From: an uncultured Clostridia bacterium | GTDB taxonomy: Bacteria > Bacillota > DTU014 | Reading direction: 5' to 3' | Assembly (NCBI GenBank): GCA_900016865.1 | Contig: FIZI01000032.1 | Span: 1 to 61,047 of the forward strand | DNA: 61,047 nt | Notes under the pieces: generated by a model | Told to the model about the DNA's origin: nothing | The model's database searches: none | What the model saw: only the letters and a program-made list of their open reading frames with translations | Position numbers and translations under genes: made by a program | Shown here: positions 3,927-22,725 of the stretch, in pieces | How positions within the stretch are numbered: the first letter of the stretch is position 1 | How the letters are laid out: each line of letters begins with the position of its first letter

Positions 3927-4286
3927 ATGCGGGTTGGAACATTGCCGTTTCAGCAGACAGCGTTGAGCACCGGCGCTCACGAGGAACAGCGCGTTCAACG
4001 CCCTGCTGTCGCCGATACTCCACACATACTTGCAGGCGGCCCGTGCCAGGCAGGCGAAATCACTGGCGAGGTGGCAAGGGCTGCAGCAGATGCAGCAAAC
4101 AAGATACTTGGAGTATTCGGGACTACCGTTGAGTTTACTGTTCACGAGGAAACAGGTTTTGAAATCCTTCAGATCATTGACACGAGGACCAACACGGTCC
4201 TGAGGGAGATGCCTCCCCACGAGATTCTGGACATGATAGCCCGGATGTGGGAAGCAATCGGTGTTTTCGTAGACAAGACCGCGTAG
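3927..4286 (+). CDS. flaG: FlaG family flagellar protein
   Basis: The C-terminal half carries the FlaG pattern: FTVHEETGF, then IDTRTNTVLREMPPHEIL, and a final G-x-F-V-D. FlaG proteins are small and usually encoded just before fliD; loss affects filament length in several bacteria. The N-terminal 45 residues are low complexity. The ATG follows a GGGG element. It is the first gene of the flaG-fliD-orf-fliS-orf unit, which ends at the hairpin at 7165, and has tandem sigma-54-like and sigma-28-like promoters upstream. Confidence 0.85.
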   Translation: MRVGTLPFQQTALSTGAHEEQRVQRPAVADTPHILAGGPCQAGEITGEVARAAADAANKILGVFGTTVEFTVHEETGFEILQIIDTRTNTVLREMPPHEILDMIARMWEAIGVFVDKTA

Positions 4287-4322
4287 CGCTTTTTGAGATC
4301 CTTATGATGAGGAGTGACTGAC

Positions 4323-5885
4323 TTGTCTTCAAGTAACCTGCGCATCGGAGGGCTGGTTTCGGGCCTTGACACTGACCAGATCATCAAGGACCTTGTCAAA
4401 GCCCAGCGCTTGAAGCTGTCCGGTTACCAACAAAACAAGACCATACTTGAGTGGAAACAACAGGATTACCGCAGCATAAACAACCTCCTTCGCAGACTCC
4501 GTGACGTTACTTCTGATCTGCGGCTGCAAGGCACATACCTCCGCAAGGTGGCTGTGAGCAGCCAGGAATCAGTTGTCACGGCCACGGGAGGTACGACCGG
4601 TGAAGGGGTATATAGCATCGTAGTTACTAGGCTGGCGACTTCTGCAACTAAAGTCGGAAGGAGCTTGTCTGCGGATCCTACAGCCAAGATCGACACGTCG
4701 GCAAGCTTGTGGTCTCAGCGTGACCTTTTTGCCGACGGGACCGATGCCGACACAGATACATCGGTGAACTTCGAATGGGGCTCTGAAGGAGATACTTTCA
4801 GTTTCTCAATCAATGGTGAGGAGTTCACATTCGCTAACACGGTCACTCTCGATAGGATCTTTGCCGAGGTCAGTGCAAATGAGAATGCCAAAGTCACAAT
4901 GATGTACGACTCGTTTACTGACAGAGTCGTTATTACCACAAAGAGCACCGGCGACAACAGGCCCGGCGATGAGATAGTCATCGACGACCCTTCAGGTTTT
5001 CTCAATGGGCTCTTGCAGTTCTCTGGAGCGGTCGAGACTGGTGGAGAAAACGCACAGTTCTCAATAAACGGGCTGGCCACCGAACGGACCACCAACACCT
5101 TTGTGTTCAACGGCGTAACATTTACTCTACAGGGGGTCTCGCCCGACCCGCTCCAACCTGCAAGAGTCACTGTGAGCACTGACACCGACGGGATCTACAA
5201 CATGATCAGCGAATGGGTCGAGTTGTACAACAGCACGATTGAGTCTATATACGAAAAGCTCAATGAGAAGAGATATCCTGACTACAAGCCGCTGACCGAT
5301 GAGCAAATCGAGAGCGAACAGCTCACGGACAAGCAGATTGACAAGTGGGAAGAGAAAGCCCGCAGCGGCCTGCTCAAGAACGACAGGCTGATCTCCGGCG
5401 AGATGACTAAGATCCGAATGGCCGTCTACAGGATAGTCAAAGGCATTGAGGACGGCTACAGGTCTCTAGCAGACATAGGGATCAAGACTGGTGAGTACGA
5501 GGAAAACGGGAAGCTGTACATAGACGAGGATGCTCTGAGAAAGGCAATCGAGTCTAATCCTGAGCAGGTTATGACCCTGTTTACTCACAGCAGTGGGAAC
5601 GAAGACGAGATGGGTATTGCCAGGAGGCTGTACTACACACTCGTCGATGCTGTGGACCGCATCACTGACATGGCAGGCTCCGATGGCGACCTTGGAGACT
5701 CAAGCTTTATCGGCGAGCAGATCCGGTCAGTCAACAAGATGATTAGCAGAGAAGAGGACCGGCTGCAGAGGTTGGAGGACCGTTATTGGAGACAGTTCAC
5801 AGCACTTGAGAGACTGGTAAGTCAGTTGAACGCCCAGAGCAGTTGGCTGCTCAGTATGTTCAACACGTATGGTGGCAATCAGTAG
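4323..5885 (+). CDS. fliD: Flagellar filament cap protein FliD
   Basis: FliD (HAP2) caps the growing filament and folds incoming flagellin. The N-terminus LRIGGLVSGLDTDQIIKDLV is the family signature. The D2-D3 region is in the middle, and the C-terminal helical part has IGIKTGEYEENGKLYIDEDA and ends in a coiled coil. Length of about 520 aa is normal. The TTG at 4323 has GAGGAG with 8-nt spacing. A GTG at 4314 in frame sits on top of that ribosome site, so TTG is preferred. It is followed closely by a small gene and fliS, the usual late-gene order. Confidence 0.93.
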   Translation: MSSSNLRIGGLVSGLDTDQIIKDLVKAQRLKLSGYQQNKTILEWKQQDYRSINNLLRRLRDVTSDLRLQGTYLRKVAVSSQESVVTATGGTTGEGVYSIVVTRLATSATKVGRSLSADPTAKIDTSASLWSQRDLFADGTDADTDTSVNFEWGSEGDTFSFSINGEEFTFANTVTLDRIFAEVSANENAKVTMMYDSFTDRVVITTKSTGDNRPGDEIVIDDPSGFLNGLLQFSGAVETGGENAQFSINGLATERTTNTFVFNGVTFTLQGVSPDPLQPARVTVSTDTDGIYNMISEWVELYNSTIESIYEKLNEKRYPDYKPLTDEQIESEQLTDKQIDKWEEKARSGLLKNDRLISGEMTKIRMAVYRIVKGIEDGYRSLADIGIKTGEYEENGKLYIDEDALRKAIESNPEQVMTLFTHSSGNEDEMGIARRLYYTLVDAVDRITDMAGSDGDLGDSSFIGEQIRSVNKMISREEDRLQRLEDRYWRQFTALERLVSQLNAQSSWLLSMFNTYGGNQ

Positions 5886-5915
5886 ATGAGTCTAGGGGTT
5901 TTGGGGGTATGAGCT

Positions 5916-6395
5916 TTGCCCGAGTGCCGCAGCGACACCGAACATATGGATATGCGACTGCGACTCTTCCGAGAGATGCTGGCTGTGACTCGAGATCTCG
6001 ATGATGCGCTTACGATCGAGGAGGTTACCTCGGACAACCTCAGCATCATAGACTTGCTGGTCGAGGCCAGGGAGTCTCTCATCTCCCGGATCAATGAGCT
6101 CGACGCCCGGGCAACGAGCCAGCAGTCCTCAGTCAGCTGCAGCGTTAGCGGGGAGGCTATAGGTACCGGAGCCGGTGATGTCAGTAATGCATCTCTAGAC
6201 GGTGAATCGAGCGAGATCAGGGACGTCTTGCAGGAATTGATGGTACTGCAGAAACAGATCGATGCCAAGCTGAAGCGGCACAAAGCGAGAGCTCAACAAC
6301 GTATTGGAGAAATCCGCAAACGTAGGGCCAGCGTTTCCGGCTACTACGACAAACTCGTTGCCAGCCGGCCTCGCTATGTGGATACGAGGAAGTGA
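5916..6395 (+). CDS. Small coiled-coil protein in the fliD-fliS interval
   Basis: No firm family recognised. The 159-aa product is charged and helical, with a Ser/Gly-rich break near residues 70-95 and a basic C-terminus (KRHKARAQQRIGEIRKRR). It lies between fliD and fliS, where many genomes encode FliT-type chaperones or FliS partners, so a secretion chaperone is plausible. A TTG start at 5916 follows a GGGGGT stretch; an ATG at 5946 is the alternative. It has no membrane segment or signal peptide. Confidence 0.65.
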   Translation: MPECRSDTEHMDMRLRLFREMLAVTRDLDDALTIEEVTSDNLSIIDLLVEARESLISRINELDARATSQQSSVSCSVSGEAIGTGAGDVSNASLDGESSEIRDVLQELMVLQKQIDAKLKRHKARAQQRIGEIRKRRASVSGYYDKLVASRPRYVDTRK

Positions 6396-6419
6396 ATACA
6401 GCAAAGGTGGGGATATCAA

Positions 6420-6848
6420 GTGGCTATTGCCAATCCGTATGAGGCCTATCGCAGAACCCAGATACAGACTGCTAGCAGAGGAGAGCTTCTCTTGATGCTC
6501 TATGACGGGGCAATCAAGTTTGCAAACCAAGCGAAGAAGGCCATAGAAGACGGAGAAGTTGCCCATGCTCACCTGCGGCTGACTCGAGTGCAGGATATTG
6601 TGGCAGAATTGTCTGCTACACTTGACCATGACAGCAGTCCGGATATAGCCGACGGCCTGGCCAAGCTGTATGACTACATGATGCACCTGCTGGTGCAGGC
6701 AAACATCAAGAAGGACACAGAACCTCTTGATCAAGTGATCTCCATGTTGCTGGAGCTCAGAGAGACATGGAGACAGGTCGTCAGAGAAGGCGGTGGAGCC
6801 ACAGGGCGCGCGGAAGCTGTGACCGTATCATCTGCAGCGAACTCGTAG
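6420..6848 (+). CDS. fliS: Flagellin export chaperone FliS
   Basis: FliS binds the flagellin C-terminus and prevents premature polymerisation before export. Family signatures are NPYEAYRRTQIQTASRGELL at the N-terminus, LMLYDGAIKFANQAKKAIE, and the end of the four-helix bundle near LLELRETWRQVV. It has 142 aa, with a GTG start and a GGTGGGG element upstream. An extra Gly/Ala-rich tail of about 20 residues follows the bundle. Its position after fliD is standard. Confidence 0.95.
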   Translation: MAIANPYEAYRRTQIQTASRGELLLMLYDGAIKFANQAKKAIEDGEVAHAHLRLTRVQDIVAELSATLDHDSSPDIADGLAKLYDYMMHLLVQANIKKDTEPLDQVISMLLELRETWRQVVREGGGATGRAEAVTVSSAANS

Positions 6849-6905
6849 CCTAGCCAAGGTCATCCTTAGAGGTACAGCATATCCTTCTTAGAGGGGGTTG
6901 GGCAT

Positions 6906-7181
6906 TTGTCCCGCGATGAGATCGTCAGACGGATGGAAAGCAAGTACAGGGACGAACTCGACCTCTATCGTGTGTTGCACGGCGTTTGCCTCGAGCAGCA
7001 CCGTGCGGCCAAGAACGGACAGATGGAAGAAGTAGTCCGTCTCTCGCAGGTCAAGAGCGACCTGATGAAGCAAATAAGCGCTCTAGAATCCGAAATCCAA
7101 GCGCTCAGGTCTGAGCTTCGTCGTATTGATTCCAACCTACCGCAAAGACACGGGCAACATAGACTGAAGGGACTAGCTTAG
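6906..7181 (+). CDS. FlgN/FliT-like small helical flagellar protein
   Basis: A 91-aa all-helical, highly charged product with a TTG start after GAGGGGG. Length, helical hairpin character and placement after fliS suggest an export chaperone (FliT- or FlgN-like) or a filament-gene accessory protein; sequence identity is too weak to choose. It is the last gene of the flaG operon, and its TAG stop is inside the terminator stem. Confidence 0.6.
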   Translation: MSRDEIVRRMESKYRDELDLYRVLHGVCLEQHRAAKNGQMEEVVRLSQVKSDLMKQISALESEIQALRSELRRIDSNLPQRHGQHRLKGLA

Positions 7182-17575: not shown

Positions 17576-19990
17576 TTGAGTACCAACTCGATGCCGCAGT
17601 TGCTGACCTCTGTCAATGTGTTAGGCGTTGAGCAGGCCGCTACCGGGTCGACCTTCGATGGAGCCACGGCGCCATCTCACGCCGCGCAGGCGGAATTCGA
17701 CGCCGAATTGGCTCAGGCTCTACTGGCTCAATCTGCCGGAGCAGCCGGATCGGAAGCTCGCAAGGAGGTTCAGTCAGTGCCTGCAGGTACACAGTCTAAC
17801 GACTTCGCCGAGCCAGATAGCGCAGGTGAACGGCCAATCCAGCGGTCAGAGAAGCGTGCAGCTCAGTTGATCGATGAGGCGTATGCCTGCGAGCAGGGGG
17901 CGGGCCTAAACAGCATACTGTCAGCAGCTAGTGCCTCTACTGTCCACGGCGTCCTTCAGGAGATCTTGGAGCATTCAGGGAGCGAGCAAGCCTTTGAGCT
18001 GGTTGGATCTGTTGAGAGCCCTCTCGAGGCGTCGGGCCCCGCGGTGATAAGCCCGGCTATGGGCCAGGCTGCGTCCATTGGCAGCCCTGTGCAGGGGGTT
18101 GGCCACGGCCAACCTGACCGAATGCAGGAAGCGCAAGGCGGCGACAGCCAGTTCGGCATCCCAGCTATGGGTGAGGAGGCCGGACTCACTGCACTTGATG
18201 GGCTCGGACCTGGACCGGCGGCTCTAGGGACGGTAGGAGGCTCAACCGAGCAGGGGACATTGATGGATGGCTCATTTGGGATCAACGCCGAGTCTCCAAT
18301 GACCGACGGCCCGGTTGGTATTGACCAGCGTCAAAGCAGCGTCGGCACATGGATCAGGCAAAAGGACTCGTCTGGCCTCGCTCAGACCACGCCCAACACT
18401 GAAGAAACAGCCCTATCTGAACGTGGATCAGGACTTGAGCGAGTCGGCGTTGCTCGCCGATCTGCGGGCCAGCTGCAGCGGCGTGGACAGGCAACAAGCG
18501 GCAGAGCAGTGAGCCGAGGGGCGGCTGGCAGTAACCGCGCGTCGCTCAACGGCGGCATTAGGATACCGAATGGGCGGTCATACGTCGGCGGCCGCGAGCA
18601 GGTGTCGTCTCAATCCCAAGGGCTGCATGAGACCATTGATCCATCAGACCTGCCGGGCAGGATCGGGCATTCGCATCGACCGGGCGCCTCAGTCCACAGA
18701 CCCGGACCAACTGCTCATAGCTTGCAGTCGATAGTCGGCACTGGAGTCGAGCACCATGTGAGAGTTGACAACAGGCCGATCAACGTGCAGTACGTGCTCT
18801 CCGAGGCAGTCGGGAGCCAGAGCAGCGCGCTCTCGGACCTCCAAGAGAGCGTCGTAGAGAGCGTTGCGGACCAGGATTGGATCCAGGAGTTGGTGCGGGA
18901 CGCCTACGGGGTGTTGAACTCCCGGCCGATTGGCGAGTCGGAGATCAGCGGTCCAACCGAGAGCGCTCAAGGCTTTAGCAGTCAAGGCGTAGCTGCCGCT
19001 AACAGACCTGTCCAGACGCTTGGCACGGTCGGTACGGCCGGTGACGGGACCGACACGAGCGCAGCGCTCGACATGATCGGTACGGCCGGTGACGGGACCG
19101 ACACGAGCGCAGCGCTCGACATGATCGGTACGGCCAGTGACGAGGCAGGCACTAGCGCAGGGTTTGGAGACGGTCCACATTCTGCCACAGTAGGGCTCAC
19201 TGCGTCTCCAGAGGGAATCCCTCCTGAGAAGTGGGACGGAGTAGCTGTGATCAGGCAGAGTGACGCGGCTGCGGCCCAACAAAGGCGACCAGTGTCGAGT
19301 CAGGGCAGGGGAGCACCCGCCGTAGAACTCGGCGAGGCTGCCAAAATCGAGCGCAGCCAGGCGATTGCCAGGCAGCGCGAAGCAACGGCCAATCATCAAG
19401 CACCCGGTATCTCGGACCAAGCCGGCACTGCAGAGATCAAGGCACAGAGTTTGGAACAACCGGCTGCCCAGCCTACTCAGTTGGATGAGCCGATCAGCTC
19501 GCGTTCAGTCATTGACCAGATCGTTGAGAAAATCGACATAGAGACCGGAGCTGTAAGGCAGAAGGTGATCATCGGTCTTGAACCTGAGAGCCTGGGTAGA
19601 GTGGAGGTCCGACTCGAGGTGGAGCGAGGTAGAGTTGTAGCTGGCTTTGCAGCAGAGACTGCGGAAACAAGAAGGATCCTTAGATTGTCTGCAGACAAGC
19701 TTGTCGACGCACTCAAAGCCCAAGGACTTGATGTCACAGCGATACGAGTCGCAGTGAGCCCGCCGGCACAGTCGGAGTTGGCTCACAACGATTTGCGTAG
19801 CGAGTTTGCCCAAAGCCAGTCTGGAAACATGAGCGATTCCAACTCGCACACAGCCGGATTTGGCCAGTCGGGGCAGCGTGACCACGGCAGGCCGTACAGC
19901 TTCTACGAGGCACAGCCCAACCTGCCTTGGAACGGGTATGGCGAGGACACGATGAACGCTGAACTTGGACGGTTGGAGTTGAGAGCGTGA
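17576..19990 (+). CDS. fliK: Flagellar hook-length control protein FliK, very large
   Basis: Secreted molecular ruler that stops hook growth and switches export specificity. Only the C-terminal Flg_hook domain is conserved: KVIIGLEPESLGRVEVRLEV, then VAGFAAETAETRRILRL and LVDALKAQGLDVTAIRV. The first 600 or so residues are low-complexity Gly/Ser/Ala/Gln-rich, with a tandem repeat at 19031-19163. At about 805 aa it is roughly twice the usual size. A strong AAAGGAGGTG lies 9 nt before TTG 17576; an ATG at 17552 precedes that site. It is placed between fliJ and flgD as in other Bacillota. Confidence 0.9.
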   Translation: MSTNSMPQLLTSVNVLGVEQAATGSTFDGATAPSHAAQAEFDAELAQALLAQSAGAAGSEARKEVQSVPAGTQSNDFAEPDSAGERPIQRSEKRAAQLIDEAYACEQGAGLNSILSAASASTVHGVLQEILEHSGSEQAFELVGSVESPLEASGPAVISPAMGQAASIGSPVQGVGHGQPDRMQEAQGGDSQFGIPAMGEEAGLTALDGLGPGPAALGTVGGSTEQGTLMDGSFGINAESPMTDGPVGIDQRQSSVGTWIRQKDSSGLAQTTPNTEETALSERGSGLERVGVARRSAGQLQRRGQATSGRAVSRGAAGSNRASLNGGIRIPNGRSYVGGREQVSSQSQGLHETIDPSDLPGRIGHSHRPGASVHRPGPTAHSLQSIVGTGVEHHVRVDNRPINVQYVLSEAVGSQSSALSDLQESVVESVADQDWIQELVRDAYGVLNSRPIGESEISGPTESAQGFSSQGVAAANRPVQTLGTVGTAGDGTDTSAALDMIGTAGDGTDTSAALDMIGTASDEAGTSAGFGDGPHSATVGLTASPEGIPPEKWDGVAVIRQSDAAAAQQRRPVSSQGRGAPAVELGEAAKIERSQAIARQREATANHQAPGISDQAGTAEIKAQSLEQPAAQPTQLDEPISSRSVIDQIVEKIDIETGAVRQKVIIGLEPESLGRVEVRLEVERGRVVAGFAAETAETRRILRLSADKLVDALKAQGLDVTAIRVAVSPPAQSELAHNDLRSEFAQSQSGNMSDSNSHTAGFGQSGQRDHGRPYSFYEAQPNLPWNGYGEDTMNAELGRLELRA
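19031..19163 (+). repeat. 48-bp tandem repeat in fliK
   Basis: A 48-bp unit (16 residues, GTAGDGTDTSAALDMI) at 19031-19078 is repeated exactly at 19079-19126, followed by a degenerate third copy to about 19163. Exact identity of the first two copies points to recent in-frame expansion, which would change ruler length by 16 residues per unit. Confidence 0.9.
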
Positions 19991-20913: not shown

Positions 20914-20989
20914 TGCCACGGATGCTGTGGCATAGGGGCAGGACCTCACAGAGGATGCCCCGTGGGTTCTGACTGATCGATGAACCCAC
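20914..20989 (+). other. Three consecutive stem-loops before flgE
   Basis: TGCCAC/GTGGCA (20914-20932), GGGGCA/TGCCCC (20935-20961) and GTGGGTTC/GAACCCAC (20962-20989) are perfect stems packed end to end in the flgD-orf to flgE gap, ending about 12 bp before the flgE ribosome site. There is no U-tract. They could be an mRNA processing or stabilising element that raises hook-protein output, or a translational control region. Confidence 0.55.
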
Positions 20990-21018
20990 AACAGCAACCA
21001 AAGGAGGTCGAATTGACA

Positions 21019-22725
21019 ATGCTGCGTTCGTTGTTTGCTGGAGTGACCGGCTCCAGGAGCCACCAGTCCAGGATGGACGTTATCGGCAACAACATTGCGA
21101 ACGTGAACACGATAGGCTACAAGAGTGCTCGAATGACCTTTCAGGAGGCGTTTGCCCAGACGATCAGGTCGGGATCTAGGCCGAGCGAAAATATCGGAGG
21201 CACCAACCCTGCTCAGATTGGTCTCGGCAATATGATCAGAAGCATTGACGTCGACATGACTCAAGGCGGCCTGGAGAGCACTGAAAAACTGACTGACATG
21301 GCCATTGACGGTGACGGGTTCTTCGTGCTGAGCGATGGCGAGGCTACGAAGTATACCAGAGACGGATCGTTTACCTTGGACGGCGAAGGATACCTGGTTG
21401 CCCCGGGCTCGGGGTACAAGGTGATGGGCTGGATGGCAACCGACGGTAAGATCGACAAGTCGGAGTCTCTCAAGGCAATCCGCATCCAGCTGGGCGAGAG
21501 CATGACTGCGCAGGCAACAGACATGGTCCGCTACAGAGGCAACCTTAACGCCGAATCCTCGGGCCTCTTTGACCTAGAGGCGTTGGGCATAGGCGCCGAA
21601 GTGGCCCGAATGCTGCATGATGCAGCCAAGGCCGCGGCGGAAACCGCGAACAACCGTTCGGACGTAGCCACGGGCGTGGAAAGTAGGGAGACCAGCATTA
21701 ACACTGACATCAGCGCTCTACTCACTGCGGCCAATAACGCTGCGTCGAGCTCAGGTGCAACTGCAACACATGTAGTGGCCGCGATCCGGCAGGACGCTAC
21801 TGTGACGGACCCAGACCTGCGGAACGCAGTGGCTGACGCCTGCGACAGGGTGGCTAGTGCTATACCCGGCGCTACTGCACAGGATGTCATATCTGCTCTT
21901 GAGCGGATCCAGAACACTGTTGCGACTGTGACAGCTAGGGCCACAGAAGCGGCGCAGGAGGCGGCAGCCGATGACAGCGCTACTCCCGCAGATGTCAGAG
22001 ACGCTGTTGGAGACGTTCTCGACAGCACAAACGTGTTGCTAGCCAGCGCCCAGGCAGCTCCGTCAGAGTGGTCTACTCAGACGGAAATATACGATTCGCA
22101 AGGCGTCAAGCACGAGCTCCACTTGGTGTTTACCAAAGTGGACGACAACCGTTGGGTATGGAGGGCGGTGAGCCCTGGTGCGACTGGTGAAGGAACTGTC
22201 ATATTCAGAGCCGATGGGACAGTCGATCGAGACTACATGTCTCAGCAGGTCGTTGTTGATCCTGCCAATGGCGCTGCTCTCATCAACGCGACTCTAGATT
22301 TCAGCAACATAACCCAGTTTGGCGCGGGCTCTTCGGTGGCTGATGCGTTTGTGACCGGATTCCCGTCAGGAACACTTGAGTCGTTCAAGATTGATCCCGA
22401 TGGTACAATTACAGGGATATATTCGAACCAACAGAATGAGATACTCGGACAGATTGTCTTGGCCAAGTTTACCAACCCTGCAGGGTTGAGTCGTGACGGC
22501 AACAACCTGTATACCGAAACCGCCAACTCAGGTACGGCGAATATAGGCTCAGCAGCAGAATCAGGCAGAGGCAAGATCATGAGCGGACAGGTTGAGATGT
22601 CCAACGTAGACCTGGCAAGGGAGTTCACAGACATGATTATCACCCTGAGAGGCTTCCAGGCCAACGCCAGGCTTATCACGACAGCCGAGGAGATGCTCCA
22701 AGAACTGATTCAGCTGAAGCGTTAG
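21019..22725 (+). CDS. flgE: Flagellar hook protein FlgE with large helical insertion
   Basis: Hook subunit. Terminal D0/D1 parts are standard: HQSRMDVIGNNIANVNTIGY, then EKLTDMAIDGDGFFVLSDGE, and at the end SNVDLAREFTDMIITLRGFQ. Between YRGNLNAESSG and TEIYDSQGVKHELHLVF there are about 170 extra residues (roughly 180-349), rich in Ala, Asp and Thr and predicted helical. Total is 569 aa, against about 400 or fewer for many FlgE. Hook outer domains are normally beta-rich. GGAGG is 10 nt before ATG 21019 and closer to TTG 21013; either start is possible. Three stem-loops precede it. Confidence 0.93.
   Translation: MLRSLFAGVTGSRSHQSRMDVIGNNIANVNTIGYKSARMTFQEAFAQTIRSGSRPSENIGGTNPAQIGLGNMIRSIDVDMTQGGLESTEKLTDMAIDGDGFFVLSDGEATKYTRDGSFTLDGEGYLVAPGSGYKVMGWMATDGKIDKSESLKAIRIQLGESMTAQATDMVRYRGNLNAESSGLFDLEALGIGAEVARMLHDAAKAAAETANNRSDVATGVESRETSINTDISALLTAANNAASSSGATATHVVAAIRQDATVTDPDLRNAVADACDRVASAIPGATAQDVISALERIQNTVATVTARATEAAQEAAADDSATPADVRDAVGDVLDSTNVLLASAQAAPSEWSTQTEIYDSQGVKHELHLVFTKVDDNRWVWRAVSPGATGEGTVIFRADGTVDRDYMSQQVVVDPANGAALINATLDFSNITQFGAGSSVADAFVTGFPSGTLESFKIDPDGTITGIYSNQQNEILGQIVLAKFTNPAGLSRDGNNLYTETANSGTANIGSAAESGRGKIMSGQVEMSNVDLAREFTDMIITLRGFQANARLITTAEEMLQELIQLKR

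Follow-up and report, generated by a model that had tools for sequence, protein, structure and literature searches.

A predicted all-helical insertion within domain D2 of the flagellar hook protein FlgE in a class of the phylum Bacillota

The hook protein FlgE encoded in the window (the whole stretch of DNA that was analysed, 61,047 nucleotides long, from an uncultured Clostridia bacterium of the class DTU014) carries within its domain D2 an insert of about 170 residues, which is predicted to form an all-alpha bundle of six helices and which is restricted to this class within our sample of 398 genomes of the phylum. In the reading that we regard as probable, this insert is a class-specific all-alpha D3 domain, placed after the first strand of D2, that forms an outer shell of the hook and serves to stiffen or protect it. 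The features on which this work is based are as follows.

21019..22725, + strand: flgE, hook protein, 568 aa from the likely start, consisting of the D0-D1-D2 core and the insert
21550..22066, + strand: helical insert (D3-like) inside D2, codons 191-362 of the longest ORF
21550..21645, + strand: predicted helix 1 (191-222), from the single-sequence model; residues 204-222 are helical in the full-length run too
21655..21744, + strand: predicted helix 2 (226-255), insert model and full-length run
21763..21789, + strand: predicted short helix 3 (262-270), insert model and full-length run
21811..21861, + strand: predicted helix 4 (278-294), insert model and full-length run
21877..21966, + strand: predicted helix 5 (300-329), insert model and full-length run
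21985..22056, + strand: predicted helix 6 (336-359), insert model and full-length run
21754..21786, + strand: repeat motif copy 1, GATATHVVAAI (codons 259-269), at the start of a helix
21868..21900, + strand: repeat motif copy 2, GATAQDVISAL (codons 297-307)
21976..22008, + strand: repeat motif copy 3, SATPADVRDAV (codons 333-343)
22051..22359, + strand: remainder of D2 (FlgE_D2), profile positions 16-141 of 142

The longest ORF in this region extends from 20980 to 22725 on the + strand (581 aa), and the residue and codon numbers used in this work follow this ORF. The start of FlgE is likely the ATG at 21019, giving a protein of 568 aa, because a ribosome-binding site (AAAGGAGGT, at 21000-21008) precedes it. 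All four Pfam domains of a hook protein score above their cut-offs, viz. Flg_bb_rod (the N-terminal rod/hook D0 motif; 30.2 bits, cut-off 20.7), the FlgE/F/G D1 domain (45.2 bits, cut-off 27), FlgE_D2 (47.6 bits, cut-off 22.7) and Flg_bbr_C (the C-terminal D0; 58.5 bits, cut-off 23), and the same is true of TIGR03506 (296 bits, cut-off 70.25). The cut-offs of the full-length NCBIfam FlgE equivalogs are missed, the best of these being NF004241 (385.9 bits vs 469); as these models cover the whole protein, both the insert and the distance of the lineage count against the score. The identification of this ORF as FlgE is thus decided by the domain tests and by gene order. The Flg_hook, FlgD, TIGR02530 and FlbD profiles confirm a flagellar neighbourhood containing fliK, flgD, flgE and flbD, with FliK, FlgD and the TIGR02530 protein upstream of flgE, and FlbD downstream of it, followed farther along by FliM and a FliN-type protein; MotA, MotB and FliL, named by eye from their ORFs, lie in between. 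FliK of Salmonella is about half as long as the 812-aa FliK found here, in which a 48-base tandem repeat (19029-19160, 2.8 copies, 92% match) falls in the variable ruler region. Elsewhere in the window (3927-4286 and 4314-7181), a FlaG-like ORF, assigned by eye, is followed by FliD, a weakly FliT-like ORF, FliS and a weakly FlgN/FliT-like ORF, and a sigma-54-type response regulator with a PAS histidine kinase is located downstream of this group and ahead of the basal-body genes.

The first-pass annotation had described an Ala/Asp/Thr-rich stretch with strong helical periodicity between two canonical FlgE motifs, and both parts of this description are borne out. The stretch (21556-22066, codons 193-362) lies between RGNLN and WSTQTEIYDSQG. 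Of its 170 residues, 43 are Ala, with Asp and Thr contributing 16 each, and the insert is acidic, with a net charge of -15. The match to FlgE_D2 begins only at codon 358, at profile position 16, so that the insert is within D2, behind its first strand; this profile match and an alignment to Campylobacter FlgE place it between the first strand and the remainder of D2. For residues 200-355 the hydrophobic moment at 100 degrees has a z of 3.1, a value reached by 3 of 500 shuffles, vs 0.5 for the same residues at 170 degrees, and within the predicted helices the z rises to 3.6 (0 of 2000 shuffles). Three other stretches of FlgE show no helical signal at 100 degrees (z of -0.7, -0.2 and -0.3), and none is seen in the comparison stretches of ten relatives, for which z at 100 degrees ranges from -1.9 to 1.4. 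The only Cys of the protein, residue 288, is in predicted helix 4.

The structure of codons 187-372 (186 residues) was predicted with AlphaFold2 from the single sequence, with no alignment. The best of the five models (pLDDT 89.4, pTM 0.84; range of pLDDT for all five 75.8 to 89.4) consists of six helices and contains no strand of three or more residues; the insert is thus predicted to be an all-alpha bundle rather than a normal D2 domain. The model of full-length FlgE, made from a two-sequence input, is poor (pLDDT 45.7) and was used for the helices of the insert alone; it repeats the helix boundaries, with block means of roughly 57-85 over the insert, and gives strands in the flanking D2, after residue 362. 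Ala-rich stretches are often predicted as helical, the input here was a single sequence, and the corresponding insert of the sister genus described below contains still more Ala (52 of 170 residues). These considerations could suggest that the insert is a flexible Ala-rich linker, or a low-complexity expansion, which AlphaFold over-predicts as helices. However, the model is confident and compact, the amphipathic periodicity exceeds that of shuffles of the same composition, and the hydrophobic faces are common to the two genera, and we consider such an origin of the prediction highly improbable.

Two genomes from two genera, viz. the window genome and a sister, represent the class in our sample. 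In the FlgE of the sister the insert is present at the same place, which rules out an assembly oddity as its source; 62 of 168 aligned residues are identical (37%), with 3 gap columns, and the alignment score of 227 is to be compared with 45 +/- 12 (maximum 79) for shuffles. The sister supports the helical fold less strongly than does the window sequence itself: its helical moment is weaker (z 2.2 at 100 degrees and 2.0 at 170 degrees; z 1.9, 62 of 2000 shuffles, within the predicted helices), and the moment of the conservation pattern alone has a z of 1.7 (110 of 2000 shuffles). The hydrophobic faces of helices 1-6 differ between the genera by 4, 43, 23, 51, 5 and 4 degrees, so that all six agree within 51 degrees and three within 5 degrees. 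Between the two genera no part of FlgE has changed faster than the insert, the remaining three stretches being 74%, 63% and 88% identical. Its pN is 0.46 vs a pS of 0.75, and no omega is given because the synonymous sites are saturated in both the insert and D2. The low conservation (37% vs 63-88% elsewhere) is what would be expected if the insert were a dispensable surface decoration, i.e. an exposed helical domain bearing no mechanical load and evolving under weak constraint or to escape phages or grazers, and for the outer domains D3/D4 of Campylobacter variability has been proposed in PMC5097172 to represent antigenic variation. However, the length of the insert, the phases of its helices and the repeated motifs considered next are all kept in both genera, and because of this its fold appears to be constrained; an interpretation as mere decoration therefore seems to us rather unlikely.

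The insert of the window has an internal repeat of about 36 residues. Its autocorrelation peaks at a lag of 36 (z 4.4), a value reached for the best lag by 1 of 500 shuffles, and in the sister the best lag is 72, which is not significant (124 of 500 shuffles reach the value). A motif, [GST]AT-x-x-D-V-x-x-A, opens the units at 259, 297 and 333, i.e. at spacings of 38 and 36 residues, and the sister carries counterparts of all three copies at the same three places. Among 261 ORFs of the examined loci no other contains this motif, a count that does not constitute an independent test as the pattern was drawn from the six copies. Further, helices start at 191, 226, 262, 300 and 336, with spacings of 35, 36, 38 and 36 residues. 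We read these regularities as a probable, though not proven, sign that tandem copies of a helix-turn unit, about 36 residues long, account for at least part of the growth of the insert.

A search with the insert as query finds it in the FlgE of 2 of the 398 phylum genomes, which are the two members of the class; the FlgE_D2 domain is present in 225 of the 398. The insert is thus not common in the FlgE of Bacillota, and within this sample it is restricted to the class. Six weak matches from outside the class (four DnaK, one protein of the penicillin-binding type and one long surface-type protein) and two more in a second search (resembling thiolase and alanyl-tRNA synthetase) were rejected as matches of composition; these proteins were named by eye and none of them is FlgE. 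For comparison we used 88 distinct FlgE-like proteins of at least 330 residues, from among the matches listed, many of which were chosen for their length (52 of the 88 have at least 470 aa). Apart from the class members, none of these 88 proteins from the matches listed has a comparable Ala-rich segment: the peak Ala fraction in any 100-residue window reaches 0.34 and 0.29 in the two members of the class but does not exceed 0.17 in the remainder, as determined for 100 of the 113 ORFs in which both ends are present (counting duplicates; the 13 with fewer than 30 residues between the ends were left out). In other long FlgE proteins of the phylum the extra length likewise lies between the N-terminal half and the D2/C-terminal half. 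However, their insertions are called beta-type from composition and propensity, whereas the insert of the class is Ala-rich and predicted to be helical. By a crude helix propensity score, one of these proteins (L018; 546 aa, halophile-like and acidic, with a different insert) scores above both class members, and another, L023, which is also acidic, scores just under them. From their sequences we judge both to be acidic rather than helical; the L018 protein may hold a short helical part.

Searches for related families gave no match to the insert at a meaningful score. With Foldseek, the insert model has no match at E <= 0.001 either in the PDB or among viral models; a phage protein whose name refers to flagellar basal-body/hook proteins, at rank 4 of the viral list (E 0.29, TM 0.40), was taken as chance. 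The best VIA-align Z of 8.1 falls inside the background range given for helical models. When a profile built from both inserts was run against PDB sequences, the best matches were HasA-type haemophores, at E 0.033 or worse; the matches of the insert to ApoLp-III (E 0.04) and PspA (E 0.19) are far under their own cut-offs, and a PHROGs search with the insert gave no match. These results bear upon the view that the bundle is a binding or adhesive domain, which recognises a ligand or a component of the envelope or of a sheath instead of neighbouring hook subunits. Such a domain would be surface-exposed if it is placed like the known D3 domains, and functional domains inserted in flagellin, namely a metallopeptidase, are reported in PMC5595980. 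However, in addition to the lack of a meaningful family match, or of a fold match at the above threshold, the composition of the insert shows no aromatic-rich or metal-like site, and we consider a binding function improbable. The suggestion of the first-pass annotation that the insert makes contact with a sheath is likewise unsupported, as nothing was found that points to a sheath.

Hooks are already known to carry outer domains inserted in D2, and due to this it is the fold alone that is unusual here, not the presence of an extra domain. In the alignment with Campylobacter FlgE (5jxl), codon 191 falls opposite residue 180, and the two chains come back into register at the YDS motif; between these points Campylobacter FlgE has its D3/D4. 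According to PMC5069557, the Campylobacter D2 consists of two segments surrounding D3/D4, and D3 of Caulobacter, 145 residues long, is inserted as one segment at almost the same position and folds differently. The D3-D4 of Campylobacter jejuni (PMC5069557, PMC5097172; PDB 5jxl) resembles the insert in gene family, in its site in D2 and in lengthening FlgE. However, it comprises about 386 residues, forming an alpha/beta barrel and an antiparallel beta domain, whereas the insert comprises about 170 residues and is predicted to be all helix; no sequence relation between the two was detected. Similarly, the Caulobacter crescentus D3 occupies the same place relative to D2 and is close to the insert in size, but it is described in PMC5069557 as a half-barrel of strands with short helices, whereas the insert has no predicted sheet. 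The insert model thus matches neither of these D3 folds (beta half-barrel or alpha/beta barrel), in accordance with the initial impression that the insert is unlike the beta-rich D2/D3 domains of known hooks. The position of the insertion is therefore conventional, at a known hot spot in D2, and it is the helical content, as predicted from the sequence, which differs from the domains described. A literature search covering titles and the openings of abstracts, with subscription journals mostly outside its range, found no all-helical outer domain of FlgE.

By analogy with these domains, the insert would project from the hook surface and lie at an outer radius. A Salmonella strain whose FlgE carries the Campylobacter D3/D4 at the corresponding place is fully motile according to the abstract of PMC5069557, and according to its Discussion the same strain swims less well than the wild type; the hook diameters given are 180 A for Salmonella and 245 A for Caulobacter. 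In Campylobacter, D3/D4 provide additional contacts both inside a protofilament and from one protofilament to the next; their deletion results in poorly motile cells, of which more than 90% have short flagellar stubs, with many broken flagella (PMC5097172). A stiffening role of the insert would follow by analogy from this case, the Campylobacter analogue being of unrelated fold. In the mechanism that we propose, FlgE would be exported unfolded and D0-D1-D2 would build the normal hook tube, while the helical bundle would fold outside and sit at larger radius. The Ala-rich, acidic helices of low bulk (net charge -15) should unfold easily for export; with up to 32 residues and a rise of 1.5 A for each, they would reach lengths of about 48 A and could stand outside the tube. 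About 120 copies would then form an outer shell, in which extra contacts between neighbours may stiffen or protect the hook, as the Campylobacter D3/D4 do. Such a hook would be wider than that of Salmonella and perhaps near that of Caulobacter, whose D3 is of similar size. The domain itself would have arisen at least partly by tandem copying of the unit of about 36 residues.

The surroundings of this hook can be considered from the remaining flagellar genes. FlgI is present in both class genomes, which implies a P ring and hence a second membrane, beyond which the hook would lie. In one locus (L127, 12091-13954) FlgI is accompanied by a FlgH-like ORF, assigned by eye; the two genes together suggest P and L rings and hence a double membrane in the lineage. 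Flagellin_N, matches to which normally include FlgL, is found in 322 of the 398 phylum genomes and in neither of the two class genomes; 9 of the 225 FlgE_D2-positive genomes are, by eye, missing among the Flagellin_N positives. The absence from the class should not be interpreted as showing a flagellin-less flagellum, i.e. a hook without a filament. FlgL and flagellin genes usually follow flgK, and the break in both class assemblies falls within the 3' end of flgK, at position 1 of contig C39 for the window genome and position 1 of contig C124 for the sister (loci L127 and L129). Further, FliD, FliS (in the window genome) and FlgK are present despite the absence of Flagellin_N. The absence is thus probably a shared assembly gap.

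Hook proteins are known to differ from species to species in the size and fold of their outer domains, of which, to our knowledge, few have been described. An all-helical domain at the D2 site would mean that this site accepts any fold, and with a helical D3 one could test cleanly whether such domains act by their shape or merely by the contacts which they add. We put forward as a tentative possibility, to which we give clearly less credence than to the shell domain as such, that a double-membraned class wraps its hook in an all-alpha shell, the domain having been born within FlgE by copying of a helix of about 36 residues and not by capture of a foreign domain. If this is true, outer domains of axial proteins can arise in place, and if the origin from a repeat is right, the insert would also be a case in which the growth of a new domain within an essential structural protein can still be read.
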